Positions 3,897 through 33,850 of a DNA stretch of 64,000 nucleotides are shown here, piece by piece. Position 1 is the first letter of the stretch. Each line of letters opens with the position of its first letter. The notes beneath the pieces were generated by a model that ran no database searches, was not told the DNA's origin, and saw only the letters and a program-made list of their open reading frames with translations. This DNA comes from Diplolepis rosae (taxonomy: Eukaryota > Arthropoda > Insecta > Hymenoptera > Diplolepididae). The stretch covers positions 3,397,501 to 3,461,500 of the forward strand of contig JAPYXD010000755.1 in assembly GCA_030998225.1 (NCBI GenBank), written 5' to 3'. Both the position numbers and the translations under genes were made by a program.

Positions 3897-3933
<37 letters not shown>

Positions 3934-10672: not shown

Positions 10673-11378
10673 TGTCACGTCCCGTGACGCATTAGAATGT
10701 ACTATAGGCACAGGCTAGGTCTAGAGGAAAATCTGCGGAAATTACTAAATGAGAGAGAAAAACACCTATTGAAAAGAAAGGGCTAACTACGTCACACGCT
10801 GCGGGAGACTGCGCAATGTGTGACGTCACCAAAAAATATAATATAAAAAGGACTCGCCGCCAAGGGAAAACTAGTCTTCTGAGCAGAATTTAAGTGCGGC
10901 AATTTCTAAAAACTAAAAAGGATTCTCAATGTGAGATAATTATACCGTGCAGTTTGACAGTGTCAAGACCCGAGAGTCATAAATTTACCGTGGTCCGTTT
11001 TACTATCCTTGAAGGGATCTTAGACTCAGTGCCAAAAAGGGTGAATAGTTGTTGTGTCCCTGTCACACCTGTGGATATTCACTCCCTCGTAGTCACACCT
11101 GTGAGAATCGTATCGCAGTCATACCTGTGAGGAACACTTAAAGAAACAAAAGGAAATAATAAAGGTACCGAACTCTTCTCTCTCTCTCTCTATCTCTCTC
11201 TCTTCTGTCTTTTCCAACCAATCAGCCTGTTCCTCCAATTTCGTACCAATTGTATCAACATTTTTATAATTTCAAATTTATAATTATTTTAATAAATTTA
11301 ATTTGTATTATTTAATAATCATTGTGTCTTTTCATTGACTTAGCCTCATCCCTAAGCTAGGATCATTCGATCCTAACA
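10673..11378 (+). repeat. Element G 5' LTR
   Basis: A 706-bp LTR beginning TGTCACGTCCC and ending GATCCTAACA. The first 360 bp match 30495-30860. It contains a promoter-like region, a CT-rich tract (about 11178-11210) and AATAAAG (11157-11163), possibly polyadenylation-related. Diverged minus-strand relatives lie at 23052-23849 and 33652-33850. Confidence 0.88.
10821..10850 (+). promoter_or_regulatory. CRE-like site and TATA box in LTR U3
   Basis: TGACGTCA at 10821-10828 is a perfect palindromic CRE/ATF consensus. TATAAAAAG follows at 10842-10850, with transcription expected shortly downstream. The 3' LTR keeps the TATA block but has TGACGTTA. Function is inferred from motif and position only. 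Confidence 0.55.
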
Positions 11379-11392
11379 TACTTCCTTTTTTC

Positions 11393-11410
11393 TGGTGCAT
11401 CGGCCGGGAA
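11393..11410 (+). other. Primer-binding site, tRNA-Gly
   Basis: The 18 bases TGGTGCATCGGCCGGGAA, 14 nt after the LTR, are the complement of a tRNA-Gly(GCC) 3' end including CCA, as I know that tRNA. This marks the 10673 LTR as a 5' LTR and sets the plus orientation of element G. Confidence 0.85.
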
Positions 11411-11788
11411 ACACAAGTCAATTGAAATTTAACACATTGATTATTTCTAGTGAATAAATAAATGATTATGAAATATTATTTCAACTTGTAACTTGAAATT
11501 TCAATAAAATAGATTTGTTAGATCACAAAGGGATTTGACCGTGAGGCTAACCTTAATGATTTAATAATCAAATCATTTCTTTGAAATTTTATAATTTATA
11601 TGAATTGTATAAAATAAAATAAGTTTGAAAAATCACGCAGGGATCTGACCTTGAGGCTAACCTAAATGATTAAGTAACTTATCTTATTTAAAAAGATATT
11701 CTAATTTAATACTAAGTATTGATTTAAGTTGAAACAAACATAAAAAACAGCACACGAGAGTATGAGTCCTTGTTGGGTACGTTGAAGG
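11411..11788 (+). other. Element G leader, no ORF seen
   Basis: AT-rich leader with two similar segments (near 11520-11560 and 11630-11670), each containing a 'gggat-tgacc-tgaggctaacct' motif, so a short internal duplication. No coding potential recognised. It is interrupted by the foldback at 11797. Confidence 0.55.
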
Positions 11789-11796
11789 GTCACCAT

Positions 11797-13014
11797 TAGC
11801 GTGGTCCAAAATGGCGTCTTTTGAATAAATGCAAACGATCCCCCCAAAAAGTTTCGAAATCCAAAAAAATAAAGGTCCTATTTTTTCTTTTTTCAAAATT
11901 TCGATTTTATATGGTGCCTGTTGGGACTTGAAATTTGCATGGGAAAATGCATGGGAAAAAGTCACTTTTCGGTATTTTTCAAATAATTGTTCAGGGTTAG
12001 GGAAAAGTTGACATCAGAGTTATAAGGCTTCTGGAGTACTTTCCAACGAAGAATTTGACGTATCATACATATGGAAATCATTACTATAGGTCTATTGGAA
12101 TGTTTACAAATGTTTTTTAGTTAATTTCCATTTATTTAAATAAATTCTATTTGTTTAAATAATATGTTCTTCTATAAAATTCGTTTTAAATCTGTTCTCC
12201 GAGATCAGAATGGCAGTTTATAATCTGAAAGTAACTTTATTTACTTCTTTATTTATTTATTAATTTCTTTCTATTGTTTAAACAATTAATTATTATTAAT
12301 TTTCTACTTTTTTGCAATTTATGGTAAAAAAGTCAGCTTTTCTTGTGATAAAACTATATATTTTAATTTCAAGGTATCGTCTATACATTATGTAATAAAT
12401 CCTAAATTGTGGTTTTTTGTAATAAACATATATATACATTAAATAAATAAAGTTACTTTCAGATAAGAAACTGCCATTCCGTTCTCAGAGAACAGATTTA
12501 AAACGAATTTTATAGAAGAACATATTATTTAAACAAATAGAATTTATTTAAATAAATGGAAATTAACTAGAAAACATTTGTAAACATTCCAGCAGACCCT
12601 ATAGTAATGATTTCCGAAAAAAGGAGAATAAACTGCTTAAAAGAGTCAATTTCCTGAAGAATGTACATTTTTCGATTTAAGGGTAGTTTTCAGGGCATCG
12701 TGGGGTGTGTTAGGGGCGTCAAATCCATATGTATGATAGGTCAAATTCTTCGTTGGAAAGTACTCTAGAAGCCTTATGACTTTAATGTCAACTTTTCCCT
12801 AACTCTGAACAATTATTCGAGAAATACCAAAAAGTGACTTTTTCCCATGCATTTTCCCATACAAATTTCAAGTCCCAACAGGCGACATATAAAATCAAAA
12901 TTTGGAGAAAAGAAAAAATAGGACCTTTATTTTTATGGATTTCGAAACTTTTTGACGGGATCGTTTGCATCTAGCATCAAAAAAATTTTTGCAATGCATT
13001 TTTGGACCACCCTA
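11797..13014. mobile_element. Foldback DNA element with 8-bp TSD
   Basis: The element starts TAGCGTGGTCC and ends GGACCACCCTA and is flanked by GTCACCAT on both sides (11789-11796 and 13015-13022). Almost the whole element is a long inverted repeat: about 11820-12260 pairs with 12450-12975, the right arm holding an extra ~100-bp block around 12615-12730. An 8-bp duplication and this terminus fit hAT- or P-like MITEs, but no transposase is present. The 60-codon frames in the two arms (11829-12011 plus, 12788-12970 minus) are mirror images of the repeat, not genes. Confidence 0.85.
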
Positions 13015-13022
13015 GTCACCAT

Positions 13023-13308
13023 TGATTACGATCATTGGGTAAGGCAAAGTTCGAAGTGCTTGTGATTATATTGATTATAACTTTAATTTTAACTCTGTTA
13101 AGGAACAGAATATTTTTAATTGCAAAAAAAAATTGTCCAAGGAGTTGTACTCAAGTTAACTTGTCCAATATAATGAAAAATATTGGAATAACCATTGCTA
13201 TAAACAAATTTGTTTAATTGTTATAAACAATTTATAAATAAATAAAATAAATTATTTTAGTTTACATAGAGAGCACATGTAGTTGGTAAAGAAAAATATT
13301 TTATTATT
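13023..13308 (+). other. Element G, region where gag would lie
   Basis: AT-rich sequence between the foldback and the first pol-like frame. I see no gag, zinc knuckle or protease active site. The pol frame starts inside what should be the end of the protease, so gag and most of the protease are deleted in this copy. Confidence 0.6.
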
Positions 13309-15168
13309 TTGAGAAATTTATTATTAAAAAGAGTTTTTCAAGATAATAGTGTAAATATAAACTATACTTCAAAATGCTTAGAAATTGAGAACCACTGTTA
13401 TCCTTCTAAAGCTTCCAATACATTTACTATTCCAGCTCGAACAGTTACAACATTTTATGTTAATATAAAAAATACAGAAAAGAGTGAAGGGTATGTACCT
13501 CGATTACATATCCAAGATGGCGTCTACGTAGTTGACGCAGTTGTAAAAAATCACAAGGGAAAAGCTTATTTAAAATTTGCGAATACACATGAAATACCAA
13601 TAACATTATCCGTCCCAATAGTTAATTTAGAATATTTTGAAGAACAAGAATGTTATAAACAAATTGAAAAGTTACATAATTTTAAACAATCAAATAACGA
13701 AGATTTATCAAGTAAAATATTAAATAACTTTTTAAGAACTGACAATTCTCTAATTAACTCGTGCAAAATTCATAATGTAACAGACGAAGACACAGTAGAA
13801 TGTATTAAAAAACTTCTTCGATTAGACCATTTAAATCAAGATAAATATGAAGATGTAGAAAAATTAATTAAAAATAATGCAGACAGATTTAAAATCCCAG
13901 GAGAACCACTTGAAGCTACTAATGTATTACAACATTCAATTCCTATTGTAGATGACGCTCCAATTATTTCAAGACAATATAGATTTCCCCCAGTTCACGA
14001 GGAAGAAATTACAAGACAAGTAGATGAATTATTAAAAAATAAAATAATAAAGCCCTCACAATCACCATATAACACTCCAGTGTGGATAGTTCCTAAAAAA
14101 CCTGATTCTCAAGGAAAAATAAAATGGAGAATGGTTCTTGATTTTCGTAAATTAAATGAAAAAAAAATTTGCGATTCGTATCCTCTACCCAATATAAACG
14201 ATATACTTGATTCTCTAGGATCAGCAAAATATTTTTCAGAGTTTGATTTAGCTACCGGTTTTCACCATATAAAAATGGACCTAAAAGACTTGCATAAAAC
14301 CGCGTTTTCTAGACCTCACGGTCGTTACGAATTCGATAGAATGCCTTTCGCTTCAAAAACTGTACCAGCCACATTTCAGAGATTAATGGATTTAACATTA
14401 ACTGGATTAATCGGAACGCAACTTTTTATATATCTTGATGACACAGTTATATATGTAAAAACTCTAGAAGAGCACGAAATTAAATTTAATAATTAGGTAG
14501 AAAGACTTAGAAAAGCAAATCTTCACTTACAACCAGACAAATGCGAATTTTAACGACCCGAAGTAGGATATTTAGGTCATATAATTGATAAAAATGGAGT
14601 ACGTCCAGATCTAAAAAAGATAATAGCTGTAAAAAACTTTCCAGTCCCAAAAACACAGAAAAATGTTAAACAATTTTTAGGCTTAGCTGGATATTATAGA
14701 CGATTTATTGATGGATTTTCAAAAATTGCAAGTCCTTTAAATCAACTTCTGAAAAAAGATATACCTTTTAATTGGACAGAAAAACAACAAGCAGCTTTCG
14801 ATATTTTAATAGCAAAATTATGTGAAGAACCACTTTCACAACGACCTGATTTTTCTCAACCTTTTATACTCACAACAGGTGCCTCCGGATTTGCAATAGG
14901 AGGTATTTTATCACAAGGTAAAATAGGTAAAGATAAGCCAATAGCATATGCTTCACGTAGTCTAAGTGAAACTGAGAAAAAATATGATACATATGAGAAA
15001 GAAGCCCTTGCTATAATAATTTGTGTAACTCATTTTCGTCCTTATTTGTATTGAAGAAAATTTACTTTGGTAACTGATCACAAACCTCTAGTTTGGTTCC
15101 AAAATTCTAACAATTCAACAAGGAGAAATCAAAATAGTTACAAGTTGATGACAATGCAACTTTCATGA
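13309..15168 (+). pseudogene. Element G pol, part 1: reverse transcriptase and RNase H
   Basis: Gypsy-type Pol starting just after the protease core. The first ~120 residues are the post-protease segment (TIPARTVTTFYVN). RT follows: LDFRKLNEK, SYPLPNINDIL, the first catalytic Asp in FDLATGFHHI, and YLDD with both Asp codons at 14437-14442. Connection and RNase H continue in frame to about 15168. In-frame stops lie at 14494-14496, 14551-14553 and 15052-15054. The first RNase H catalytic Asp is replaced by Gly (codon 14878-14880). The RNase H ends early. The start codon of the longest frame is TTG inside the element, not a true initiator. Non-functional, but the family assignment is secure. Confidence 0.92.
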
Positions 15169-15260
15169 CTTCTCAAGAAAAAACGTTTTCCAAGAAAACG
15201 TTTACATGAAATAAACAAGAAAACGCTGAAAATGAGATAAAACCTTCAAAACGAAGAGAT

Positions 15261-17748
15261 TTGAATCCAGGAATCGCACCAGACGACGTTCATCATTTCA
15301 GCGAAATTCCGGAAGCCCAAATTATAAATATTGACTCAAAAATTCCAGCATATTTTCAGGAACTTCTTAGTGAAGAATTATTTAGTGAGATTGGTAAGAA
15401 TATTTTAAAATACACAAATTTATTCAAAAATATGGCTTCAAGACTGATTTTTATGGCAACATTTTTATTAAGTTTAATGTTTTCCAAAAAATACGAAAAT
15501 TTACCATGGAAAACTATTACTACAAGAGCTCAAACGAGAATAGAGCAAGAAAAAGCAAAAAATTTGAATCATAATGAAACTCAAGAAAAATTAGACGAAA
15601 ATTTTTCTTCTGAACCTCTTGTGAAAAAATCACGAGGTACGCCAAGAAAAATCTACTTACAAATTTGAAAAATATTCCCTCTCAAACAAAAAGAAAGAGA
15701 GGTAGGCCAAGAAAACAAATATTTTAAAATGAATTACCAGAAATAAATATGCAAAAAGAAAGCCGAACAAAAGTAGAAGCAGATTCCGACTCTGATCCTG
15801 ATTATTTAAATTATATGAAACAAACTCAAGCAAAAATCAAAAAGAAGAATGCCAAGAAGCCAAAAAGTATTAACGGATTTGAAAGCGAAGAAAGTGAAAA
15901 TTATTTTTCAACCTCAGAAGATGAAATCAACGACATTGAAACCTCACACGAAGAAAATGATGGAGAAAATTATGAAGAAAATTTGGAAGAGAATTTCGAA
16001 GATGATCTTGAAGACAATTTCAAAAAGAATTTCTAACAGAATTTTGAAAAAATTTTGAAGACAATCTTGAGGAAAATTTTGAAGAGAAGTTTGAAGAAAA
16101 CCAAGAAGAAAAATTGGAAGAAGAATTTGAAGAGCTTTATTTTGAAGAAAATTTGAAATTAAAACGAAGATCTCAAATAAATTCTGGAAAAAACGATGAT
16201 AATCATTATAATTATAATCATCTACCCCCCGAACCTCCACCAATGAATTCTCAAACAGAAAAAATTATAACGAGGAAAAATTTTGTTGAGTGTCACGATC
16301 AATTAACTATGCGAAAAGATAATTATGCATATTTTGTTACAACAAATGGAACTCCTCGCGACAACGGATCAAAAACTTTAGAAAAACGTGAAACTTTACC
16401 AAAATTTAAAAATTTACAAAAGGGAATAGCAAAAGAAACTAAAAAAGGAAACTACTACTATTTTGCGCTTCCAATTGAAGAAGAAACTGTGGACAATTTA
16501 TCAGAAAATTTAAATAATATAAAATTACCAATTCACTCATTACATGAATTATCTCAGAAATTTAAATTACGATCAATTAGTATTTCAAAAACTTCCAGAA
16601 TTAATCATATACCTTGGGAAGAAGTGAAATCAATTTTCGATTCATTTTTTTCAAATTCAACTACAAAAATTATAGTTTGCAATGGAATAACGCAATATCC
16701 AACAAAGGAACAACGAACTCATTTAATTGAAGAAGGTCATTCTTCAGCATTAGGAGGCCATAAAGGCGTCACAATAACTTATAGTCGAATTCGCCAAAAA
16801 TTTTTTGGGAAAATATGAAAGTAGACATTCAAAAATATATTCAAGGCTGTTTACAATGTCAACAGAAAATATTAATCACAGTCAAAACAAAAAATCCTAT
16901 GGTAATCACTGACATACCCACTATTGCTTTTGAAAAAATATCAATGGACATTGTTGGTCCACTACCTGAAACAAAATGTGGTAACTTAAATATTCTAACG
17001 ATACAAGACAATTTTACCAAATATTCTTTAGCAATACCTCTTCCTAATCACCAAGCTAGTACGATAGCAGATGCTTTCGTGAAAAAATTTATTTGCATAT
17101 TTGGATCGCTAAAAGGAGTACTAACGGACCAAGGCAGAGATTTTTTAAGTAACCTATTAAAAAGATTGGAAAAACGTTTTAGAATTAAACAATTTCGTAC
17201 CACAGCCTTTCACCCTCAATCAAACGGATCATGAGAACGTTCACATCATGTTTTAGGAGAATATCTCAAACAATTTGTTGCAAAGAATTCAGAATGGGAT
17301 GATTGGCTTAAACTAAGCAATGTTCTCGTATAATACTAGTTTACATGAAGGCACAAAATGCACACCCTATGAATTGGTTTTTGGTAAACTAGCTCGTGAA
17401 CCTTCCAGCGAACCTTTATCACAAAAAGAAAAATTACAAACGTATGATGATTATTTAATTAATTTCGTAACACAACTACACGAAATACGAACACAAGCAA
17501 GAGAGAACCTTATTTCAGCAAAAGAAAAATCGAAATTATATCATGATAAAAAAATAAATCCTTAAGAAGTAAAAATTGGATTTTTATTAAAAGGAGGTAA
17601 AATTGAAAAACTTGACAGCCATTATACAGGGCCTTATGAAATATTGGAAGCGTTAGGAAAAGGGAATGTGAAAATAAGCTATATAGGCAAACCTACTGTA
17701 GTTCACATTAATAGACTAAAACGCTCACATGTGCAAGTACAAAATTAA
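15261..17748 (+). pseudogene. Element G pol, part 2: acidic linker and integrase
   Basis: A long linker follows RNase H. It includes an AT-hook-like KRKRGRPRKQI at 15686-15718 and an acidic low-complexity tract from GAAGAAAATTT-type tandem repeats (about 15950-16165). Integrase then follows: the HHCC domain (GHSSALGGHKG near 16735, then GCLQCQQK near 16845) and the DDE core with Asp at 16946-16948 and 17127-17129 and Glu at 17235-17237 (DD35E spacing). The C-terminal domain (PYELVFGKLA, then YTGPYEI) ends at TAA 17746-17748. Breaks: frame changes in the linker and at about 16800, TGA at 17232-17234 directly before the catalytic Glu, a frameshift at about 17312 and TAA at 17563-17565. Confidence 0.9.
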
Positions 17749-17947
17749 TAAAAATGAAACAAAATATCTTTACTTTGATTATAAAAAAAATATGTATATA
17801 CATATATCTATACATATACTAGTTAAATAAAGATATAGAAATTTTATTTTGTCCACAAATAGTAAAAATATAAAAAATAAAAAATTTTCTACGAAAATAT
17901 ATGTTTTATATATGAAATAAAAAAAATATATATACAACAAAATTAAA

Positions 17948-18265
17948 ATGAAATTTCAGACATTAAACATTATTCCGGATATAATGGAACCAATTCATCG
18001 CAAACGCATAAATGATCTAATTGATATAGTTCCCTGTTTTATCGACATGGTAGCTCTCTGGCCATATTTAATTCAAACTGGAATTTTTAACCAAGACGAC
18101 TGTAATATCCCAACATGGAGCAGAAACCTAAACAATCCAGATATAATAAAAGACATTTTTTCAACAATCAAAACAAGAGGACCGGACGCATACAAAAATT
18201 TAATTCTCAGTTTACGGCTATCAAATCACAATTTCATAGCCGACATGTTGGATATAATGAACTAG
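17948..18265 (+). CDS. CARD-like domain protein (accessory ORF of element G)
   Basis: A 105-residue ORF, open from ATG to TAG, 200 nt after pol and 119 nt before the glycoprotein ATG. From about residue 13 it reads as a six-helix CARD: a basic first helix, a hydrophobic core (ALWPYLIQTGIFNQDDCNI), and the hallmark segment TIKTRGPDAYKNLILSLRL at residues about 73-91, with the RGP-A-(Y/F) pattern typical of initiator-caspase and adaptor CARDs. Nothing else is attached, so it would be a CARD-only protein. In known families such proteins bind CARDs of caspases or adaptors and modulate apoptosis. Here that role is inference. No signal peptide or membrane segment. It is undisturbed although its neighbours are broken, but at this length that could be chance. 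Alternative: another death-fold domain. Confidence 0.68.
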   Translation: MKFQTLNIIPDIMEPIHRKRINDLIDIVPCFIDMVALWPYLIQTGIFNQDDCNIPTWSRNLNNPDIIKDIFSTIKTRGPDAYKNLILSLRLSNHNFIADMLDIMN

Positions 18266-18368
18266 GAACGCAAACGAAAAAAAGGAAATCAATAACTTCA
18301 AAAATATACATATGTAAAGATAAAACATTTTTCTATTCTTATATTACAAAGCAAGCTGCTAATTAGAA

Positions 18369-18384
18369 CCTCCTTTTTCCAGAG
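18369..18384 (+). promoter_or_regulatory. Splice acceptor-like site before glycoprotein ATG
   Basis: CCTCCTTTTTCCAG (18369-18382) followed by AG and then the ATG at 18385. A polypyrimidine tract plus CAG directly upstream of the start fits a spliced subgenomic mRNA, as known for errantivirus env. Confidence 0.5.
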
Positions 18385-20413
18385 ATGGGATTACGAGGCT
18401 TCCTTTTGGCACTGCTCACTTGCAACATTAACTATATAACATAAGTCTACGCCATCATAGGATTCGACTGCGGTTCAAATCAATCAAATATTACGACATT
18501 ATCTTTACTAGAGGCAGGAGAATGTGATCTGCCTCGATCTCAAGTACATGTTGAAAGAACTTATATACAAATTTTACAATTAACTGGATTTTCAAATACA
18601 AAAGTAATACGATGCAAAATAGAAATTCGACGCGCCATCTCTCATTGTGGTATGCATTCTCTCAGTTCCATGGTTGCAAATGGCCACAGTGAATATATAC
18701 ATGATGTTACACGAGATCAATGTAATCAAATGCACACAATAGGAACATTTTCAATAACCCCTTCTCTTCAGATATCAAAGTTAAAAGTAAATGAAACTTC
18801 ATTTCAAAGCGTTTCTTTAGCAGGTTCTGTAACACCTATTGGAGACTCCACTGGTACACAATTTTATGACCCATACGGAACCTGGAATAATGTGGTAGTC
18901 CAAGCAATATTCAAAATAACTTTACAAGAACATTACGCAACTATTCATTTAAATTCAAATAAAATTCAATTAGGATCTGGAATAACATGCATACTTTCAG
19001 ACACATTCTATACAGACGTAGAATATGGACAAACATTCTGGGATACGCTACCTAATGACGTATGTAATTTTAACAAATATGAAACTATTTATGAAGGTCC
19101 AGCAAATAAAACATATGACAACACGACAGACAATTCTGAAACTTTTTATTCTTGAACGAATAAAGATATAACTTTCGTACTATCTGAAAAAACAAGAAAA
19201 CCAGTTTGCAGTTACGTTTTAATACAAACCGAACATCCAAAATTATTAATCTTTGAAACCAGACCTAGAAATTCATTTTTAGAAAATAAACATTTAGATG
19301 TTCAAAATATGGACATTTTTACATACGTTAACTCTAAATTTACATATGTGGAACGACATATACGCACTGAAGTAAATAGACTTTATCACGATGTTCTTAC
19401 TGAGCGATGCATACTTGAACAGCAAGTTTTTAGGAGTACATTAACCTTAGCAACCCAATCACGAGACGAATTTGCATATCATTTAATGAAAGGCCCAGGA
19501 TATATGTCAGTAATTGCAGGAGAAGTAGTACATATTTTAAAATGTATAACGGTTGAAATAAAATATCGCAAAACTGAAGAATGTTATCTACAACTACCAA
19601 TATTTAGAGGAAATCAATCCTTTTTCCTTTCTCCACGGACTCATATATTAGCAAAATTCGGTATCCAAACAAATTGCAATTTTTTCCTTCCACCAATGTA
19701 CCTTTTTGGAGAAACCTGGTACAAATTACTTCCAAATCCTGTCGAATCCATAGCACCAACTAGAGTTAAACCTCTCACAAAAGCAACCTGGAAATACACA
19801 AATCCTTCATCCTTAGCAACAAGTGGCATTTATTCTCAATCTAATCTTGATAAACTGCGAGATCATATTATGTTTCCAGCAGAAAAACCAATGATTCTAA
19901 ATTCTTTAGCTAGAGAAATAACAGGACATCCAACTATTAATCAAGGAATATCATTAACGAATTTATTTAATGAAGATGTAATTGATAAAATTGCTGAATC
20001 CGCATGGGGTAGATTTTGGACAATTTTTACAAGTTTTGGAACTACTAGTGCAGGCTTAATAGAATTAATAATAATAATTAGAGGGATTAAATTGATAGCG
20101 GATACAATTATTCATGGATATGCACTACACAGATTATTTGCATGGTCTCCATCTACTAGGCGCCTTCTGGGATTCAGTCACTAACCTCTTATTACACTTA
20201 GGTACCCGTCGACCTTCTGGACCTCCTGCTGAGAGTCATCAAGAACTGCTAACAGCTTCAGCGCTACAAAGCTCGAAAGAGGCACCTAAAAGTTCATCGT
20301 ATTACGCAAATACTACTTCAGGTAAAGATGACAATAATACAAACACAACTCTTTATCCTCACTCTGAATTAAAAGAAGAACTTAGTAGAACCCACTACTC
20401 TATCCAAATCTAA
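18385..20413 (+). pseudogene. Chuvirus-type glycoprotein (first envelope gene of element G)
   Basis: An envelope glycoprotein resembling those of chuviruses (Jingchuvirales), which are known to be captured by arthropod retroelements. It starts at ATG 18385 with a hydrophobic signal sequence (GFLLALLTC). The ectodomain has paired Cys and the motifs GFDCGSN, RAISHCGMHS, DPYGTWNNVVVQ and LYEG-like YEGPANK. A membrane segment near 20040-20130 (LIELIIIIRGIKLIADTII) is followed by a cytoplasmic tail. Breaks: TAA at 18442-18444, TGA at 19153-19155 and a one-base frameshift at about 20150, after which the tail continues in another frame (LHLLGAFWDSVTNLLLHLG) to TAA at 20411-20413. About 676 codons in all, a plausible full length. 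It lies between the CARD and dsRBD ORFs. Confidence 0.72.
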
Positions 20414-20423
20414 CATCTTCAGA
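20408..20423 (+). promoter_or_regulatory. Splice acceptor-like site before dsRBD ORF
   Basis: AACATCTTCAG ends at 20422, one base before the ATG at 20424. Same arrangement as upstream of the glycoprotein and zinc ORFs. Confidence 0.42.
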
Positions 20424-21780
20424 ATGTCGCATGTTCCTTTTACAACCTTACTAAACAAAATTATTCAACAAAGAGGAGATCCACCCCTGATTTATGAGAT
20501 ACTCATTGAACAAACCAATAATAATGAATGTCTATTTCACGTTAATTTACAATATAAAAATCTAATAATAATGAATAGTGGCAAAGATAAAGAAAATGTA
20601 AAGCAAAAGGTAGCACAAAATTTATATAATGCCTTAATTAATGAATCAAAGGAAACAAATCTAAACGTCCAACCAAATTCTTTTGGTAAAAATTGCAAAA
20701 CATTAAATGAAATTTGCACTCAAAATAAATTTGAGTATCCAAAATATACAGTATTACGAATAAAAACCTCATCAAAAGACTCAACATACATAGCAATTTG
20801 TTTCATTAACAGCATTAAACAAATAGGAATAGCAAACTCAATAAAAACAGCTAAGGATTTTGCTGCCATAAAAGTTATTAATTTTCTTTCGCATAAAGAT
20901 TAGAAATGTGAAGTAAGTTTGATAAACTCACTAGAACATTTGCATGTAACAATTCAAGAATCATCTATAAACGATCCAAAACCTTCAACGAGTAGCCAAA
21001 TAACAAAACCTATTACTTCAAATAACAATCGTGATAAAAATACAAATTCATATAAAATGGAAAAAAATAATAATCATACATCATCTTCCTCTACAAAAAG
21101 CTTTAAAAAATGTTTTAAATGCGGATATAGACCTCCCAACCAATACAATAAATTCTAATATAAACATTCCATATCGATTCAGGAAATCAACTGCAATGGA
21201 GCATTACTACGACGAGCCTACACACGTAGCAACTTACCATAAAAATATATACAGAACAGACTCCATGGGATTTTTAAATCATGTAGAAATTTTAAGAAAC
21301 TTCACGATAAAATATGGACTGCTGTTACCGTAATATGCAGTCTATTCTGATCCGAATTCGAAAACAAACTCATTTTTACTTGCACTAATTAATATAAATG
21401 AACATTTGGTTATACTTGCCGGTCGTACTAGCGAATTAGCAGAAAATAGAGCAGCATTAAAATGATTGTTACTACTAATGAGATCAGACGATCTCTGCGA
21501 CGAAAAATTTTATAATAATGATGATAAAAAAATGCAAAAACCCAAAAATCAAAGCATTCAAACCGATTCAAGACCAAAATTAATACCATGGGAAAATTCC
21601 TGTAGATTTTGTAACACTCAAATGCATGCTACAAAAGAGTGCCGTAGACGAAATATTTTCAAAGTAGACAAATCAACCAATTTCCCGCTCCAGTTCCACC
21701 AAGAAACTCCTCAACATTTAGTAGACTTTTTTCCCCTCTTGCTCCAAAAAACTTCTAGACCTAAATCCAACCAAATGTAA
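20424..21780 (+). pseudogene. Triple dsRNA-binding-domain protein with CCHC knuckle
   Basis: The intact first part (20424-20903, 159 residues) contains two dsRBMs. The first is residues about 7-71 (LLNKIIQQRGDPPLIYEIL, later ENVKQKVAQNLYNALI). The second is residues about 91-157 (LNEICTQNKFEYPKYTVLR, ending TAKDFAAIKVINFL). TAG at 20901-20903 is followed in frame by a Ser/Asn-rich linker. After a frameshift at about 21120-21150, a third dsRBM is readable (EILRNFTIKYGLLLP to ENRAALK) with stops at 21331-21333 and 21463-21465. A canonical CCHC knuckle, CRFCNTQMHATKEC, lies at 21601-21642. The architecture resembles triple-dsRBD RNAi cofactors. In viruses, dsRBD proteins commonly hide dsRNA from Dicer, so an RNAi-suppressor role is inferred, not shown. 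Confidence 0.78.
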
Positions 21781-21804
21781 ACATCCTATTTTATCCAATA
21801 TTAA

Positions 21805-21839
21805 TTCTACTTTTCTTTTTCAGCCTTCCGAGAAGCCTA
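21805..21839 (+). promoter_or_regulatory. Splice acceptor-like site before F-type env
   Basis: TTCTACTTTTCTTTTTCAG ends at 21823, 16 nt before the ATG at 21840. A strong polypyrimidine tract and CAG, consistent with a spliced env message. Confidence 0.5.
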
Positions 21840-23051
21840 ATGAATTTCCTTAATCAACTGGCATCCAGAGTGTATTTAATTTTAATTCCACTCCTTTTCT
21901 CCAAAGCAGAAAAATACTTTATAGACTCACAATTTTCTCATTCTTCAGGGATTTATTTTGAACCAATTTTAAAAGTTCGTCTTTTTTCTGAAAAATGTCA
22001 TTTTATATCTTATATCGATCAGTGTGTCCAGATTTGACACGCGAACGTTACGCACACAACGCCAACAGCAGTACGTACGTGAGAATGGTTGCGCCAGGGC
22101 AGGTCAGCCTCTAATGTATTGGGTGTCCCCGTAGGATAGTTCATTTGAACGGATATGCGCGGCGCTAGTTGTAGGAAGCGTATGGAGTGCGACAAGGGAA
22201 CGGCTTCGTATGAGTTCCGCCATTGTTGTATACAAGTGTATACAAGTATCAACAATTCGTACGCGATTGCGCTTTTTAATCATTTAAAATGAAGTCGAAG
22301 TACGAAATGCAGTGTACGGTTAGTGGGTGTACGTATAAAAGGGATCAGAAGAACAATGTGTCGATTCATCGGTTTCCGAAGAAAGAAAATAATGGACAAC
22401 GATGGATAGAAGCATGCGCAAATCCCTACTTGTCGAGGTAACAATACCTCCAAGTATTGGAAAGAAAATATTTTGTTTGTCATCGACATTTCGATGAACA
22501 ATGTTTTTACCAGAAGAGGAATGGCGTTTTTCTTTTAAAGTACGGTTCGGTTCCAACGTTAAATTTATTGTCGGGTAGTGATGTGTCAAAGTGTCAAAGT
22601 GATGTGAACATTAAACCGGCGACTGTTTCTTCCCCATCAGAATTTGAAATTTTGATCCCCCAAGTAGAAAAACCTGGAGAAGGCACACGAGACTTTGGAG
22701 AAAGTAGCGTGCAGTTTGTTCACGTAAGTAGCAATATTTTTAATTTCATACGATGTTGTATATAATTTCAAACCTTTCGACTCTGATCAGAGTCCTCATT
22801 AGAGATCTTTATTTCTTAAATTGTAAGTACAATAAATAAAATAATATACATATGAGCCCTATTTGAGATACCTAAACTAAAAAACTAGTCTATACACTAC
22901 CGGTAAAAATTATTTATTCACCTGCTGTTTTAGCTATTCTTAAAGTGTCTTAATTTTTATAGTAACAAGTTTGAAGTTTCTTTTCCCATGATAGTGTTAC
23001 GTCACAAGTACGCAAATATACTTACTTTGATCGAAGATTCCTCGTTTTAAG

Positions 23052-23849
23052 TTAGGATCGAATGATCCTCGCTTAGGGATGAGGATAAGTCAATGAAAGA
23101 CACAATGATTATGAAAATAATACAAATTGAATTTATTTTACTGGTTAAAATTTTCGGATATACATTCGTTAAGACAATTCTTATATAATGTAGGCACAGG
23201 CTGGTTGGTACGTGGGTGAGAAAGAGACAAAGAATAAAGATAGAGAGAGAGAGGTTCGGTACCTTTATGACTCGTAAGTTGTGTTGAGGTTTAATCCACA
23301 CGGCGGTGAGTTGTAAGTACGGGATCCCCACAGGTGTATTCCAAGTGTGTGAGAGAGACGGAGTTATAGGCCGCACAGGTATATTCCGTAAAGGGCGGTG
23401 ATTCAAATTTACGACACTGTTCGAAGATCCTTACAAGATCTATTCAAGTCTACGATGACTTTTACGACTCCCGAACTTTGATTTTAAATTGTCCCGGTCG
23501 AATTTTATTAATCTCAAACTCAGAGATTTTCGAAGTTAAATTGAAATGCTGCACTGGACTATTGTCGCGAGACCGGTTATAAATCCGAAGGAAAATTTAT
23601 ATGTCGAACTAGACGAAGAATTTACTGACTGCTTTCTCTTGGTGTGGGCCTCTTTTATATTTTTTCATACAAATTGACGGTCAGCGAAAATCGTGACGTA
23701 GTCATATCTTCTTAGAGGAGAAAGGGCCCTCTATACTGCTCCCTACTTCCTCTACTCCCTATTCCCCTTTATCGATTTTCTCATAGATTTCTTAACTCAA
23801 TCCAGCCTGTGTTTATTATATACATTCAAATACGTCGCGGGACGTGACA
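23052..23849 (-). repeat. Element-G-family solo LTR (diverged), nested in P-like element
   Basis: The right end CGGGACGTGACA (reverse complement of the element G LTR start) is at 23838-23849. The left end, TTAGGATCGAATGATCC at about 23052, matches the LTR's 3' end. CT/GA-rich and CACAGGT-type blocks correspond to the 11050-11210 region. It is about 800 bp, longer and clearly diverged from 10673-11378. No clear target duplication was found. Confidence 0.75.
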
Positions 23850-24027
23850 ATAGCATGGAAGTGAATAAAATTTTGCATCTGAGCCCAAGTTGAAGGTAAA
23901 ATGATAATTTCATAAGAATATATTGCAAAAAAACGTCAAATTTCGATGTTTTTTAAAAATATTAATAACACTGAAATTAATTAAGATTTTTAAACGTTTT
24001 TGGTCTCATTTTGAAGGTTACTCTTCA

Positions 24028-24233
24028 TAGTATTTTGTTAACTTATCAAGATATTTTTAGAATTTTTCTTTTGCATTCTACCCTGGGGTCAAACATGATA
24101 CAAAGAAGTCGAAAAATTTCAAATAAAGACAGTAATCTATAAATTTTATGACCTTTTTGTATCATTTTTGACGCTGGGTAGAATGCAGGGAAAAAAATCT
24201 GAAAATACCTTGATCAGTTAACAAAATACTATA
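24028..24233. repeat. Small palindromic MITE
   Basis: Arms at 24028-24112 and 24150-24233 are reverse complements with few mismatches (outer ATAGTATTTTGTTAACT against AGTTAACAAAATACTAT, inner GCATTCTACCC). Spacer of about 37 bp. No ORF. Confidence 0.8.
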
Positions 24234-24907
24234 AGCATTGCTTGGTATATGTTCAGCCTGTCCTGCTCATATGGCATCGCATTTTATAGGACTTCTACAA
24301 ATTGCTCGTTCGCTCGATTGCTTTGCAATCGGCATCAATGCCTCGATAGAACTTTTAAAAGGTGCATTATTATCCATATTATTTTCCCAAATTAACTTAA
24401 TTGTCTTTCTTAACAAATTGTAATTGTTTTATTTATGTTTCTTAGGAGTTGCAAAGATATTGTCAAAGTTACAACAACAAAAAATTGACCAATCGATGAA
24501 GGAACTTTGCTGGTTTAAAGCGAGGCCGTTGTACGAACTTATGGAAAAGCAAGGAATTCAAATCAACAGAGGTACAAAAAATAACTCTGATATGGCTTGA
24601 TAGATTAGCTTTTATGGCCCAATAAGTCTGCAGGACATCCGTCTTCTAATTTAACTAAAAATGTAAATAACGACTTACTGCAGAATGAACATCTCTTTGA
24701 AATCATAATACGGCTTCAAGATTTTTATATTGGCACATTGCTACGAAATTAATATAAATTGGTTTTAAATTATTCTTGGCCACGACATCAATGAAAATTA
24801 TCTTGTTGTACAAAAATTAAGGCAAAATGTGCTGAGCAACTATATTTTCTGCAAATAAAAATACAAATTACAGATATTTTTGATTTTTACTTATTACGAC
24901 CAAACCA

Positions 24908-25003
24908 AGATTTAAGGCAAAATTGTGAGAATGTAATTCAAGAGTGAGTTGATATTAACTTCTCACTCTTGAATTACATTTTCAAAATTTTGCGTTAAAT
25001 CTT
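24908..25003. repeat. Long perfect-like hairpin in P-like element
   Basis: About 40-bp arms (24908-24948 and 24962-25003) with a core GTAATTCAAGAGTGAG against CTCACTCTTGAATTAC and a 13-nt loop. It could be a fold-back duplication or a hairpin RNA; nothing shows expression. Confidence 0.75.
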
Positions 25004-26843
25004 CAATTTCCTTTTAATTATATTTGAATACATTATTCTCTGTAAGGCATTTAAAGAACCTACGTATGCATGTATATGCACTAACACGTGTACACATAAT
25101 GGTAGTTCCTTTGAACGGATATACGCGGCGCTAGTTGCTAGGAGACACTACGCTGCGCGCGCAACCATTCTCACGTACGTACTGCTGTTGGCGTTGTGTG
25201 CGTAACGTTCGCATGTCAAATTTGGACACACTGATATCGATATCTTTCAGCCAGACGTACTTAAATACGAAACAATAGATTTCTCACATAAATTATATGA
25301 ATATTGAATACTTTCAAATATTGCCAATAATTGTAATTTATGCGATCATCAGACACAACTTAATTTTATAGAACAAGGAATCAACTATTTTCTTGAAGAA
25401 ATATCATTTATATCTAGACAAGCTCGTAATATCACGAATATTTCTAAAACTGATGATCCATTCTTGCAAAAGATACAAAAAGTACTTTTAGAATTGAGAA
25501 TGAGACAGGATCCTCCCTTTACTGGCCCAAAGAAAATTTATTTCTACGCCCAAATCCATTTTTCCAAAAAGTTACAAATCTTTCTTCAAAACTTCACAAC
25601 ATTATGACCTACAAAAAGTGGCATACTTCTCAAAAGGATCCAAATATTCACCTATATAGAATATTAGTCGCATATTGTCTTAAAGACCTGCATGAAATTT
25701 CTCAATCTTTTCTTTTACTCCTTGACCAACTTACAGAAGCTATTACCAATGCCGCAACTAATTTATGGCACCCTATGTTACTTCCTTATACCTTCTTAGA
25801 ATTCAAATCCAACAAAGAAGACAAACACCTTTCAACATCCCTTTTTTCTATGGTCCTTCCATTTTCTAAAATACAATACTTCTTATTCGATAAGTACTTG
25901 ATTTTTATTATGACTATACCAATCCCATCTGCTGAAGAATTTCAATTATTTAAACCACATCCAATTCCAATACATCTCGATTTCAATACTGACGTAATTT
26001 CCTCTATTTACATAAAACCTCAAAATTCTTATCTCGCTATTTCTTCAAATAACCAATCTTACTTTGCAACAAATGAAAATTTCCTCAATGCATGTTATCA
26101 AAATTGATTCCAAACATTTTGTCACCCACCAAGATCTATATCTAATATAGATAACAATCCTATTTGTGAAACATCAATGTTTCTGAATTCTCAACCATAC
26201 AAGTGTGAAATATTCATCAGTTTTAGTGAATATCCCTTTCTAACAACATTGCAATTTTATCATGGATGGCTATACTCAACAATTTTCCCCCAACAAATTT
26301 TCTTATCATGTCTAAAAAAACTCTAAAACCTTAATCACACTCCAGGGAATAGTAATTTTGCAAACAAAATCAGGTTGCAATCTAGATTCATCAACTCCAT
26401 ATTACCATCTACAAAACCATTTGAATATAATAGATAATTTAATTCCAGTCAGCAAATCAACCACATAACTTGCTATAATTTCACTATTTTTATATAATGT
26501 TTCTATTCAAGAGCCTCACTTGCTAAAAAAGGTATTACTTCTTCTCCAGCAAAAAAAAGACACGCCATTATCAATCTTCGAAAACCATGTCTTTATCCTT
26601 ACAAAATATGCAAACATTCAAAAAATCAATCCATCTATTTTTATTTCTAGTGCACATAAATTAACATTGGCACTAATTATTATCACTTTACTTATGATTA
26701 TAATTTTAGGATTAATATTATTGAAAATTCAAAAAATATCTAAAAAAATAAACAAAACGCCAACACGTATAGAACTTATACAAAAAACTCCTTTCAGCTC
26801 AGTGACAAAACCTTTACTGACCGACTTGACATTCAACTTTTGA

Positions 26844-27190
26844 CCTTTCCTTTATTCTATCTTCCATTTACCCTTTTTTATATAAACTCAAAGTCACCTT
26901 AGAAATTTTTTCAGATACAGGCACATTCTGTCCTTACCTTCCTCAAAACCACGTGCATGAACGTTGTAAATCCTATAACGTCAGAAGTACAGTTTTTGTA
27001 CGCACGCCTTTAAAGCTTCTAACTAAATAAGTAACAAACTGTAATATAAAAGTTGTTGTTCTAACGGAAAGTAAAATACTTCTAGCAAAATCTTTTACCT
27101 TGCATGATTAGAAAATATATTCAAAAAGTTATTATTCAATCTCCTTATCAGACCTTAATAAATAAAATCTATTCTAAAAATTTATAGAAA
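26844..27190 (+). other. Element G spacer, possible acceptor at end
   Basis: AT-rich sequence between the F-type env and the first zinc-module ORF. No ORF recognised. TTTATAG at 27181-27187, four bases before the ATG at 27191, is a weak splice-acceptor-like site. Confidence 0.45.
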
Positions 27191-27600
27191 ATGATACCAA
27201 CTCCAACTGAACCTATTGTTAACCATCTTGGACCAGAAGACGGTATATATCCGCAAGAATATCCGATAGCATACGCGCACTTATTACAGAGTCATTGCTT
27301 CGAATTAGAAGCGTCGACATTGTTTTTATATTATAATCACCAAACCACAAAAAGATATTGTCAATTCTGTTTCGAGAAATTAGATCAGTAAACTCAAAAT
27401 AATTGTGAGTTTTTTACTTCATGGCATTCCATTTGTAAATTGGAATGCATATATATGAATTGTTACGGTTGTTAAGAACTATTAATTAATTAGCGACAAA
27501 GAGCAGCTAATTGTAACGAATGCATCGAAACATATTTAAATAACAAATTCAAAATTAGTCAAGGAAACGAAGTTCTGGTAGAAAATATCCCTGGATGATC
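27191..27600 (+). pseudogene. Zinc-module accessory protein 1 (double CxxC), element G
   Basis: From ATG 27191, 66 codons run to TAA 27389-27391 with HLLQSHC and, about 21 residues on, CQFCFEKL. In the same frame past the stop, a second module is readable: CYGC at 27461-27472, then after two stops (27473-27475, 27491-27493) RQRAANCNECIE. This matches, in spacing and residues, the paralogous ORF at 28496-28927 (CSLCDTQ..., RQRAYLC.., IE). The protein would therefore have two four-Cys/His zinc modules. I do not recognise the family. The paralogues are separated by the Tc1-like insertion at 27609. It has at least three stops, so it is inactive. Confidence 0.62.
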
Positions 27601-27608
27601 TATACGTA

Positions 27609-28365
27609 AAGGGTTTCCCAATAAGGTTGATATGTTTTGAAATTGAAAAAAAACACTGAATATTCATTCGGAATTGATCGAAATCTTTTTTATTATATTG
27701 GATATTCTATGCCATTTATGATTTAAACAATATATCGGCCAAATGTCCCCCGAGACTTGAGCCAAAAATGCGCCTCATCAGAAAAGATGATTTTTTGATG
27801 AAAATTGGGATCATTTTCAATTGATTCCAGAGCCCAATCCGCGAACTCCCGACGCAAACGATGGTCACTAGGCTTCAGTTCTTGGGCCAGAATCATCTTA
27901 TAGGGATGCAGGCCAAGATCCAATCGCAAAATACGCCAGGTAGTCATCCTGGACAGGCCCAATTCCTGAGATCGGCGTGGCACGGACAATTCACGGTTTT
28001 CCTCAATACTGGCCTGTACGGTGGCTATATTCTGTGTAGAACGTGCGGTACGCATACGATTTTTAGGCTTAGTATCCAATAGAATAAATTCACTCTCCAA
28101 CTTATCGATTATTCGACGAATTGAGAGCGCGGATGGAGCAGAATGACGACCATATTTTGCACGATATGCTCTTTGAACACCGACAAAACTTCTCGAATTT
28201 TGATAAAATAATTGGACAATTTCCAAACGTTGTGGAAGCGTGAAACTACTCATGATTAAATGGCAAACCTTACTGATGACAACTGACAGCAGACGTCAAA
28301 AATTTCAGTTCAAATGAGCCCGATAGGGACATTCAAAATCATATCACCCCTATTGGGAAACCCTT
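27609..28365 (-). mobile_element. Tc1/mariner-superfamily element, internally deleted
   Basis: The 757-bp element has ~27-bp terminal inverted repeats (AAGGGTTTCCCAATA at the left, mirrored at 28351-28365) and a TA target duplication at 27607-27608 and 28366-28367. It encodes a truncated transposase on the minus strand. It sits between the two zinc-module ORFs of element G. Confidence 0.88.
27723..28253 (-). pseudogene. Truncated IS630/Tc1-mariner-type transposase
   Basis: 176 codons from ATG 28253 (MSSFTLPQRLEIVQLFY). The N-terminus is a helix-turn-helix (EIVQLFYQNSRSFVGVQRAY), followed by a second HTH area (SRMTTWRILRLDLGLHPYK) and the first catalytic Asp in IIFSDEAHFWL. The protein ends 13 residues after that Asp, so the second and third acidic residues are missing. 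The ORF itself has no internal stop. The internal deletion, not nonsense decay, makes the element non-autonomous. The family resembles insect transposases with a DUF4817-like N-terminus. Confidence 0.8.
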
Positions 28366-28480
28366 TATATATGTTCCACCCATGTACTCACGCATGACAA
28401 ATTTTGTAAATTTTAATAGAATTTTTATACAAAAAATTATAAAATTTTGCAAATGTTTCAAATTCTTTAAATATTGTAAA

Positions 28481-28491
28481 TTTCTCCTTAG
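28481..28491 (+). promoter_or_regulatory. Splice acceptor-like site before zinc ORF 2
   Basis: TTTCTCCTTAG at 28481-28491, four bases before the ATG at 28496. Same placement as at the other element G accessory ORFs. Confidence 0.45.
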
Positions 28492-28495
28492 AAAA

Positions 28496-28927
28496 ATGCT
28501 GCCCCAAGAAATCGAAACAATCGAAGCAGACGAAGTTCAAGCAAGCGAGCAGGATGTTCAGCCGTATTTTGAACATCATTTATGGTCGGCATACTGCTGC
28601 ACAACCCTTATCGAAAATTTCTATATGAACGTCCTCGAAAAAAATCTTGTTTGCGAGGATTGTTGGATGACAAAACTTAGCTTCTTTGAAACAGAAGTAA
28701 CATTACCTGTCCAAATAGATCAAATAGTCACTAAAGACTTATATTGTACGTTAAAGCTCTCCAGCCTCGACTGCTCCCTTTGCGATACACAAATTTTTTA
28801 CATGCGGCAAAGAGCATATTTATGCGTAACTTGAATCGAACGTGTAATTCATTTATGCCATCAAGAAGCATTATATAACGACGTCGATTCCGAATCATCC
28901 ACCATTATTTATAATAACGACGAATAA
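28496..28927 (+). pseudogene. Zinc-module accessory protein 2 (double CxxC), element G
   Basis: I choose ATG 28496 because an acceptor-like site precedes it and the acidic start MLPQEIETIEADE resembles paralogue 1; the open frame extends upstream with AT-rich codons. Module 1 is HHLWSAYCC followed by CEDCWMTKL. Module 2 is CSLCDTQ..., RQRAYLC, then TGA at 28832-28834 exactly where paralogue 1 has the last Cys pair's final Cys (NECIE). The frame continues IERVIHLCHQEAL to TAA 28925-28927. About 143 codons. Cys spacing implies two zinc sites. No signal peptide or membrane helix. Function unknown; the position at the 3' end of a retrovirus-like element suggests an accessory or regulatory protein. 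Confidence 0.65.
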
Positions 28928-29171
28928 AAATAATAAATCAAAACATATTTTTAATTATTCTTTTTTCTAAATATAAACAATATCCATTAATAACTTTCGT
29001 TAAAAATGTTTTCCGTTTTGTTTTTTATTCATTGTTTAAATCATATTGCATATACATCAATACTTTTCCTTAACCGACATAATGCAACGATAAACCGTAA
29101 TAAATTAAAATGTTCTATCGGCGAAAAAACAAACTTTTTTTTGTACATCTTAACTCAAACCACTGTTTTCT
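28928..29171 (+). other. Element G 3' region, no gene seen
   Basis: AT-rich sequence after the second zinc ORF. It contains no recognisable feature before the LINE insertion. Confidence 0.5.
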
Positions 29172-30182
29172 CGAAGAACTAAAGAGAGCGGATGAAAGGC
29201 TTAAGGCAAATACAGCGCCGGGTATCGACGGGGTGCCGAACGAGATCCTCAAAGAGGTGATCGGGGCATACCCGGAGATCCTCCTAGAAGCCTTCAACTC
29301 CTGTCTTCGGGATGGGAGGTTCTTCGCAGATTGGAAGAAGCAGAGGTTGGTCCTGCTGATGAAGGGCAACAATCCTCTAGGGGTTGCCTCGTCGTATAGA
29401 CCAATATGCTTATTGGATACGATGGGGAAGCTTCTGGAGGAGTGGATTCTACAACGGCTTCAGGCTCTCTTGGTCGGGGAGAACGGGCTCTCGGAAAACC
29501 AGTTCGGATTCAGGAAAGGCAGCTCCACTGTGGACGCCATCCAAGCTGTGGTTAACATCGCCACAAATGCAAGAAAAGGAACTGGTAAGCGTAAGGGATT
29601 CTGTGCGTTGATTAGCATTGACATGCGCAATGCGTTCAATACCGCGAGATGGGACATCTGCATAGAGGCGATGATGCGGAAAAAGGTTCCAGACTACCTG
29701 TTGCGAATGATAGATGACTACCTGAGCGACAGATGGGTGATATACCAGGGCGACAAATGGTCTCTCAAAGAAGAGATGACATGTGGCGCTCCTCAAGGAT
29801 CGCGGGTGGGTCCACTCGTTTGGAACATCATGTACGATGACTTTCTGCGCATGGACCTACCTGCACTCTTCGTCTGCGCAAAATGGGGTGTGGCTAGGGA
29901 GGTCCTCGGTCAGGCGGTGGGTTCCAAACATACTCCTGACACGATGGTCCCTCTCATGCTCCAGTCTGAACGGTTCTGGACGCTCATCGAGTCATTCGTC
30001 ACACTTGTGATGAAGACGAGAGAACTTGATGGGCGTCGAGAGCGAAACACCGGGGAGGGCCAGTAGAAATCGCATCGGGGCCTGCACCCGCGGTCCTGCG
30101 TCTCGGGTAGACTTGACTGTCCGCGTCGTTCGGGAGAGGAATCTGTTTGTTTCTCCCCTGGGTGGCGCGGCTAGTCAGTTAT
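29172..30182 (+). pseudogene. R1-like LINE RT fragment with in-frame internal deletion
   Basis: The open frame to 30066 begins in RT (RADERLKANTAPGIDGVPNEIL) and keeps NQFGFRKGSSTVDAI, the first catalytic Asp region (SIDMRNAFNTARW), and GAPQGSRVGPLVWN. At about 29866-29872 it jumps from DDFLRMDLPA straight to the C-terminal VCAKWGVAREVLGQAV, removing the FADD catalytic block and thumb yet staying in frame. It continues into a 3' UTR (30067-30182) matching 4490-4300 on the minus strand. 5'- and 3'-truncated. The uninterrupted 300-codon frame is unusual for a dead LINE here but cannot be active without its catalytic Asp pair. Confidence 0.85.
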
Positions 30183-30483
30183 CCGACTTTAATGGAACCA
30201 CTATTTCAAAAAAAACTATGAAATTATTTATAACAAAAAAATTATAATATTAAAATAATATAAATTTGTATCGAAAAAAAAAAAAAAAATGTTCGATATT
30301 GGAATGTATCAAATGCAAAGTATACAAATTGTAAAACAGGGACCGAAATGAATGTTGTATTTATCATTCACATTTTGTAACTATATCAGAATAAGAATTT
30401 GAATGTATCTCTTCAAAAACATCAATGAATGTATTCTTCTTTCGAAGATTCGATCGCGGATGCTTCACCCCCGCGCTCGAACT
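30183..30483 (+). other. Element G 3' untranslated region
   Basis: AT-rich sequence with a poly-A run at about 30275-30290, then GC-rich sequence just before the polypurine tract. No gene. Confidence 0.55.
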
Positions 30484-30494
30484 AGGGGGGAAGG
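30484..30494 (+). other. Polypurine tract of element G
   Basis: AGGGGGGAAGG directly abuts the TGTCACG start of the 3' LTR, the position and composition expected of the plus-strand primer of an LTR element. Confidence 0.85.
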
Positions 30495-30860
30495 TGTCAC
30501 GTCCCGCGACGCATTAGAATGTACTATAGGCATAGGCTGGGTCTAGAGGAAAATCTCGGGAAATTACTAAAAGAGAGAGAAAACCACCTATTGAAAAGAG
30601 ATGTATAACTACGTCACACGCTGCGGGAGACTGCGCAGTGCGTGACGTTACCAAAAAATATAATATAAAAAGGAGACGCCGACAAGGGAAAACTAGTCCT
30701 GTGAGCAAAATTTAAGTGCGGCAATTTCTAAAAAACTAAACAGGATTCTCAGCGCGAGATAATTATACCGTGCAGTTTGACAGTGTCAAGACCCGAGAGT
30801 CATAAATTTACCGTGGTCCGTTTTACTATCCTTGAAGGGATCTTAGAATCAGTTCCAAAA
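30495..30860 (+). repeat. Element G 3' LTR, truncated by mariner
   Basis: Matches 10673-11035 of the 5' LTR with about 25-30 differences in 360 bases by eye, including the TATA region. The match stops at about 30855, where mariner sequence begins; the remaining ~340 bp of LTR is absent on the far side of the mariner. Confidence 0.88.
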
Positions 30861-33651: not shown

Positions 33652-33850
33652 TCATTCCCTTGGCGGCGTGTCCTTTTTATATTATATTTTTTGGTGGCGT
33701 CACGCGTTGCGCAGTCTCCCGCTGCGTGTGACGTAGTTATACCTCTCTTTTCAATAGGTGGTTTTCTCTCTCTTTCAGTAATTTCCCCAGATTTCTCTCT
33801 AGACCTAGCCTGTGCCTATAGTACATTCAAATGCGTCGCGGGGCGTGACA
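33652..33850 (-). repeat. Element G LTR fragment (inverted)
   Basis: The reverse complement matches the first ~200 bp of the element G LTR, ending CGGGGCGTGACA at 33850. It includes the TATA-containing block near 33672 and the CTGCGCAACGCG-type block. Truncated on the left. Confidence 0.85.

Follow-up and report, generated by a model that had tools for sequence, protein, structure and literature searches.

The classic example of a retrotransposon turning into a retrovirus is the insect errantiviruses, for which the capture of one env was decisive and whose usual content is one env and no further genes. A locus of Diplolepis rosae raises the question of whether such an element can carry many more genes, or whether the extra genes came together by accident. 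The locus lies in a 64,000-nucleotide stretch of contig JAPYXD010000755.1 (positions 3,397,501 to 3,461,500; this whole stretch is called the window). A first-pass annotation named long terminal repeats (LTRs), a tRNA-Gly primer site, a polypurine tract, pol, a CARD-like open reading frame (ORF), a glycoprotein, double-stranded RNA-binding domain (dsRBD) coding, an F-type env, and zinc ORFs, and all of these parts are present. They belong to a single copy, old and broken, of a family of retrovirus-like elements that measure 17.6 kb; the earlier estimate of about 14 kb was too low for whole relatives.

Relatives of the window copy were found by searching its own genome (757.7 Mb, 428 contigs) with single modules. 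Only the best matches were used: 118 of 1781 candidates for the glycoprotein, 150 of 974 for dsRBD1, 150 of 1177 for CARD, 150 of 1622 for the F env, 150 of 3519 for zinc B, 102 of 8972 for the reverse transcriptase (RT), and 40 of 2064 for the LTR. A partner missing from these lists does not mean that it is absent, and the counts are no estimate of copy number. The full gene set was assembled from separate copies (loci L003, L012, L018-L020, L025-L028, and L039-L041). The gene order in the relatives is LTR, gag, pol, CARD protein, chuvirus-type glycoprotein (PF24664), dsRBD1, dsRBD2-CCHC, F-type env, zinc A, zinc B, dsRBD3-CCHC, LTR.

This order recurs across the genome. Around the best 118 glycoprotein places, which include the window's own, the correct side and strand were found for pol at 54, CARD at 64, dsRBD1 at 69, F env at 62, and zinc B at 49, and all five stood in order at 19. 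A wrong order or strand within 9 kb was seen at none of the 118. Twenty-four places had no listed partner and 16 had pol alone; two of these 16 were inspected (contigs 409 and 386), and accessory genes are present in both. Pooling the lists gave 361 clusters, with at least two modules in 188, at least four in 83, and all six in 21, and the lone out-of-order pattern among the 21 reads as two neighbouring copies. At contigs 134, 203, 259, and 380, a pair of LTRs encloses the glycoprotein. In a second subfamily, the CARD-to-zinc order is kept in both copies inspected (L039 and L040), with zinc B listed in one. The description of a complex lineage is thus well supported by the repeated gene order and the LTR-bounded copies. 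No relative was found among the contigs of the viral collection.

The check proposed by the first-pass annotation was to look for other LTR-bounded copies with the same gene order and an intact gag; its refuting outcome, the lack of any second copy in this order or evidence of misassembly, did not occur. Five LTR pairs, taken from the best 40 LTR matches, span 17,605-17,641 bp. In all five, the 762 bp LTRs start with TG, end with CA, and are identical to each other (a single differing column in two pairs is a base beyond the LTR), a purine tract precedes the 3' LTR, and the copy is flanked by its own matching 4 bp target duplication (AAAT, TTAG, TCTA, TTTT, or CAAG). The family has therefore inserted recently elsewhere in the same genome. 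All 40 scored LTR matches are at 100% identity; since the pairs were drawn from these best matches, young copies exist, but the youth of all copies is not implied. Of three 5' pieces examined, two have an open gag, L025 and L041, with 621-622 amino acids (aa); that of the third, L027, has 559 aa. In the common part of the window's two LTRs, 340 of 367 columns match, with 26 mismatches and one gap, and the window copy is therefore old. The earlier word "relic" suits this copy but not its family.

The 18-base primer site is identical in the window and in all six loci tested and starts 14 bases past the LTR (15 in one copy). All 18 of its bases pair with the 3' terminus (CCA included) of tRNA-Gly(GCC) from the same genome. 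The tRNA-Gly 3'-end pattern occurs at eight genome places; four were inspected, and ARAGORN calls a tRNA-Gly gene at three. At G000:C261:434584-434605, the pattern stands without a tRNA gene, about 1.6 kb upstream of a family RT. Also, a young family LTR fragment, 97% identical to L027, lies inverted just beyond the element (window 33655-33859, minus strand), and a stretch inside the DNA transposon of the window copy (22995-23859, minus strand) shares 97% identity with the L041 LTR region.

The window's pol has the domain order PF00078, PF17919, and PF17921/PF00665, that is, RT, RNase H, and integrase, with Pfam matches at 2.3e-20 (RVT_1), 8.6e-31 (RNase H), and 6.2e-11 (integrase core). Open pol frames reach 1652 codons in relatives, among the best RT matches. 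Against PDB chains, the best RT matches are 4ol8 (1.6e-35), which we take to be Ty3, and 7q5b (Ty3-G, 6.7e-35), followed by 8r0s (3.5e-30). Chains that are presumably foamy virus scored 2.7e-14 to 1.5e-13, and HIV-1 scored 7e-8 and weaker. By these sequence matches, the RT is nearer to Ty3 than to Retroviridae.

Two envelope glycoprotein genes follow pol. The first matches PF24664 in two pieces in the window (3.7e-45 and 1.1e-113) and at 7.7e-248 in L003. This profile is by name the Monjiviricetes fusion glycoprotein and covers the whole class. We presume a chuvirus origin over another Monjiviricetes origin, following the naming in the first-pass annotation. The second is an F-type env (Baculo_F, PF12259), matched at 2.1e-6 by a window piece and at 1.7e-22 by L019. 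As judged from these profiles, the two are unrelated entry-protein genes within one element. Glycoprotein frames of at least 690 codons were found at 84 of the 118 best places. Intactness varies among copies: the F env is broken in L018, L039, and L040, the dsRBD2 frame is shifted in L012 and the dsRBD3 frame in L028, and L019 has a deletion within the glycoprotein. By eye, this deletion (L019 39-1082) fuses the glycoprotein start to sequence that also ends dsRBD2.

The accessory genes are harder to place. The CARD-like ORF of the window matches PF00619 at 7.8e-4, with 19.8 bits compared to a cutoff of 23.9, and L003 scores 15.5 bits. Of 26 alignment members, 21, among them that of the window, match at E <= 1 with a best value of 1.3e-5, and a predicted structure model supports a six-helix CARD fold. 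A CARD relative from the wasp Leptopilina boulardi is 53% identical and is the sole named relative in the searches with three genes. The window's dsRBD match is at 1.8e-11. What had been described as a triple-dsRBD/CCHC ORF is indeed dsRBD/CCHC coding, but intact relatives have two separate genes there, and the window copy has lost a third dsRBD-CCHC gene. This third gene has 154 codons from a TTG, lies ahead of the 3' LTR, and matches dsrm at 6.1e-7; the dsrm match of dsRBD2 is below cutoff (0.0024). dsRBD2 and dsRBD3 are related across 129 columns, including the CCHC stretch, at 28% identity (2e-7). Zinc B of the window matches nothing in Pfam at E <= 1, the zinc proteins of relatives have sub-cutoff matches at most, and the predicted structure of zinc B is too poor for fold comparison. 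Zinc A and zinc B, called paralogous before, share a cysteine ladder and align over a short stretch (E 0.001-0.004, each from a single comparison), which gives modest support to their being related and makes paralogy likely.

Five accessory or env genes are under purifying selection. The ratio of nonsynonymous to synonymous divergence (dN/dS) was compared between subfamily 1 (L003, L012, L019, and L026) and subfamily 2 (L039 and L040). The glycoprotein (0.15-0.16) and the F env (0.17) have the lowest values, CARD and zinc B both have 0.23 (for zinc B with saturated dS), and dsRBD1 has 0.32-0.35. The window copy gives 0.16-0.43 against subfamily 1. Within subfamily 2, there are too few changes for use, and the F env value there, 2.35, comes from nine changes. 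Between-subfamily dS is uneven, at 0.13 for the glycoprotein, 0.22 for CARD, 0.25 for dsRBD1, and 1.0 for the F env. In L041 and L025, which belong to subfamilies 2 and 1, the first part of the LTR is almost unrelated, but identity over the gag-pol stretch is 91%. The uneven dS and this mismatch suggest recombination between lineages, including exchange of the promoter region.

Taken together, the window probably holds an old, damaged provirus of an errantivirus-like Ty3/gypsy lineage that turned complex: besides gag and pol it has two unrelated glycoproteins and six accessory ORFs, and its primer is tRNA-Gly. The element would be transcribed from its LTR, and, from the primer-site match, its minus strand would be primed by tRNA-Gly(GCC). 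The 3' genes may be expressed through spliced or other subgenomic RNA. Particles bearing the F-type glycoprotein, the chuvirus-type glycoprotein, or both could carry the element out of one cell type and into another by two entry routes, a passage modelled on the F-type env of fly errantiviruses. The CARD-only protein, given its predicted fold, is most likely a decoy that would keep the insect apoptosome (Dark-Dronc) from assembling through CARD-CARD contacts, so that the infected cell would not undergo apoptosis. The dsRBD-CCHC proteins most likely bind double-stranded RNA of the element and may blunt silencing by small interfering RNA (siRNA) and PIWI-interacting RNA (piRNA). The zinc proteins have the least certain role, and regulation of element RNA is a guess. 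The lineage had also been called possibly infectious and equipped with host-defence countermeasures. We infer both from the two glycoprotein genes, the predicted CARD fold, the three dsRBD genes, and the purifying selection.

Some observations speak for other readings. The window copy has four foreign inserts, and most of its genes are mere fragments. The CCHC knuckles beside the dsRBDs, seen by profile in dsRBD3 and by eye and alignment in dsRBD2, resemble RNA-handling proteins. Also, the very uneven divergence along the element, with a low glycoprotein dS beside a high F env dS, fits module swapping.

One alternative, to which we give slightly less than an even chance, is plain germ-line retrotransposition, with the glycoproteins, if used, serving soma-to-germ-line passage in one host. 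This narrows the proposed complex lineage and is compatible with it. In the available text of two reports, such passage is the established mode of fly errantiviruses (PMC10541861; PMC13172572), but a germ-line-only life would leave two unrelated entry proteins unexplained. In the main rival to counter-defence, the dsRBD and zinc genes act on RNA of the element itself. In its full form, the extra genes would serve packaging, nuclear export, or translation, not host defence, and the second glycoprotein would be a replaceable or vestigial env. The knuckles and the uneven divergence fit such a role, but the CARD-only protein has no obvious place in RNA biology, both glycoproteins have dN/dS of 0.15-0.17 between subfamilies, and most of the listed glycoprotein frames are long; we consider this explanation unlikely. 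That unrelated insertions or misassembly put viral and host pieces between LTRs at one locus is highly improbable despite the fragments and inserts in the window, and it is ruled out for the family by the LTR-bounded copies and the recurrent order: spacing is near-fixed at many loci, no wrong order was seen around the best glycoprotein anchors, five copies have identical LTRs and their own duplications, both inspected copies of subfamily 2 retain the order from CARD to zinc, and ENA-derived records join adjacent genes.

Vertebrate complex retroviruses add a number of accessory genes to gag, pol, and env. The D. rosae family is broadly like them in having several accessory genes, and unlike them (Retroviridae) in its RT, which is nearer Ty3. 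It resembles errantiviruses (Metaviridae, gypsy with an F-type env) in its Ty3/gypsy pol, TG..CA LTRs, 4 bp target duplications, and an F-type env 3' of pol. It differs from them in its length of 17.6 kb, a second unrelated glycoprotein, a CARD gene, three dsRBD genes, and two zinc genes, so it falls outside a definition of one env and no further genes. The insect errantivirus is described, in the available part of one report, with a single third reading frame, an F-type env (PMC12992720).

Captured glycoproteins of this kind have been described elsewhere, in sources of which part was available. Anakin is a mosquito BEL/Pao element carrying a chuvirus glycoprotein (PMC7642597). As in Anakin, an LTR element here multiplies a captured chuvirus-type glycoprotein; unlike Anakin, with its Pao pol, the family has a pol nearest Ty3, plus an F-type env and accessory genes. 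A BEL/Pao pol seems less likely, since the RT is nearest Ty3 among the PDB chains compared and shares 50% identity with the RT of the window's other F-env element. Mosquito gypsy elements with type III fusion glycoproteins are described with GAG, POL, and ENV frames (PMC13172572, citing the Chary and Hayashi 2025 survey of 289 metazoan errantiviruses). They share with this family a fusion glycoprotein common to RNA viruses, but two envs are found here. In Hymenoptera, Gypsy fragments were reported near Jingchuvirales glycoprotein endogenous viral elements, with "no clear evidence" of Gypsy capture (PMC10084718). The D. rosae glycoprotein likewise stands beside Gypsy sequence, and here the LTR-bounded copies show capture. 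This bears on the capture question that the report leaves open, at least in its available text: a Jingchuvirales-like glycoprotein sits within LTR-bounded, recently inserted copies. Troyka was considered as a relative and rejected, as it is reported, in the part available, without an envelope and with CG..CG ends.

No LTR element with two envelopes was found in the literature available to us, and novelty is unproved, with the most relevant survey (Chary and Hayashi, eLife 108449) outside the search. Tentatively, and with less than an even chance, this may be the first known complex invertebrate retrovirus, a gypsy lineage with two unrelated fusion glycoproteins and a counter-defence set (a CARD decoy and three dsRNA-binding proteins) that is recently or still spreading. 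If so, a complex retrovirus can arise outside vertebrates. Since the genes are open in many copies, the countermeasure hypothesis is testable one protein at a time.

The window's other gag-pol-F-env element, at about 34-57 kb on the minus strand, resembles an ordinary errantivirus from this lineage, as judged from ORFs of at least 220 aa. Its identity to the family is 50% over 232 aa in RT, 42% over 139 aa in integrase, and 26% over 193 aa in gag. Long repeats lie in this region near 34.5-36.4, 45.2-46.4, and 54.6-56.8 kb, and two 300 bp stretches, at 42047 and 47051, are identical to each other, so two or more related copies, or a nested one, are present.

The features are collected in Table 1. 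Four foreign pieces lie within the window copy, and gag and the third dsRBD gene are gone.

Table 1. Features of the window copy, the gag ORF of a relative, and the neighbouring element. Damage was inferred by comparison with separate pieces of relatives, and frames are described unrepaired.
Feature	Position	Strand	Remarks
5' LTR	10673..11378 (end approximate)	+	Family LTR 762 bp, TG..CA; middle part diverged in window
Primer binding site	11393..11410	+	18/18 complementary to tRNA-Gly(GCC) 3' end; 14 bases after LTR
Foreign palindromic insert in leader	11798..13014 (about)		Arms 11826-12075/12724-12973 and 12089-12246/12441-12598
Deletion junction	13330..13334	+	About 2.5 kb with entire gag lost relative to L025, L027 (L025 3739 to 6237)
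pol, Ty3/gypsy type	13334..17748	+	RT, RNase H, integrase; several frames
CARD-only protein ORF	17948..18265	+	Second ATG is the start in L003, L039, L040 (93 aa)
Chuvirus-type fusion glycoprotein gene (PF24664)	18445..20413	+	Three frames in window; single 676-766 aa frame in L039, L040, L003
dsRBD1 gene	20424..21158	+	Two dsRBD stretches; stop ending at 20903; 243-245 aa in L003, L012, L039, L040
dsRBD2-CCHC gene	21196..21780	+	Frameshifted; open pieces 21004-21333, 21466-21780; start is relatives' matching methionine; 194 aa in L020, L039, L040
F-type (baculovirus F-like) env gene	21840..26843	+	Split by 22020-25230 insertion, further frame breaks; 593-596 aa in L020, L019
Foreign DNA transposon	22020..25230		77 bp inverted ends; THAP-like piece, below Pfam cutoff
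Zinc protein A gene	27188..27604	+	Open to 27391 only; 135 aa in L018, L020, L040
Foreign mariner-like insert	27602..28372	-	DUF4817 piece; 42 bp inverted ends; mariner-like by eye
Zinc protein B gene	28496..28834	+	Shortened in window; 120 aa in L040, 164 or 176 codon frames common elsewhere
Foreign reverse transcriptase piece	29117..30199	+	PF00078, non-LTR type by eye; displaces about 0.8 kb including dsRBD3-CCHC gene
Polypurine tract	30484..30494	+	Abuts 3' LTR
3' LTR, truncated	30495..30861	+	Repeat of 5' LTR start at 10673
gag ORF of relative	L025 4029-5894		
Errantivirus-like element	34000-57000	-	gag 49573-50946; pol 46990-49083 and 38859-41696; F-type env 37757-38716 (PF12259 3.8e-13)

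Two other regions of the window lie outside these elements. At 568-5332, long inverted repeat pairs (I1, I7, I8, and I14) enclose 3.2-4.4 kb. On the plus strand at 58232-60148, a 638 aa ORF contains an Endonuclease_7-like stretch (5.1e-5) and, by eye, presumably resembles the protein-primed DNA polymerases of Maverick-like elements.

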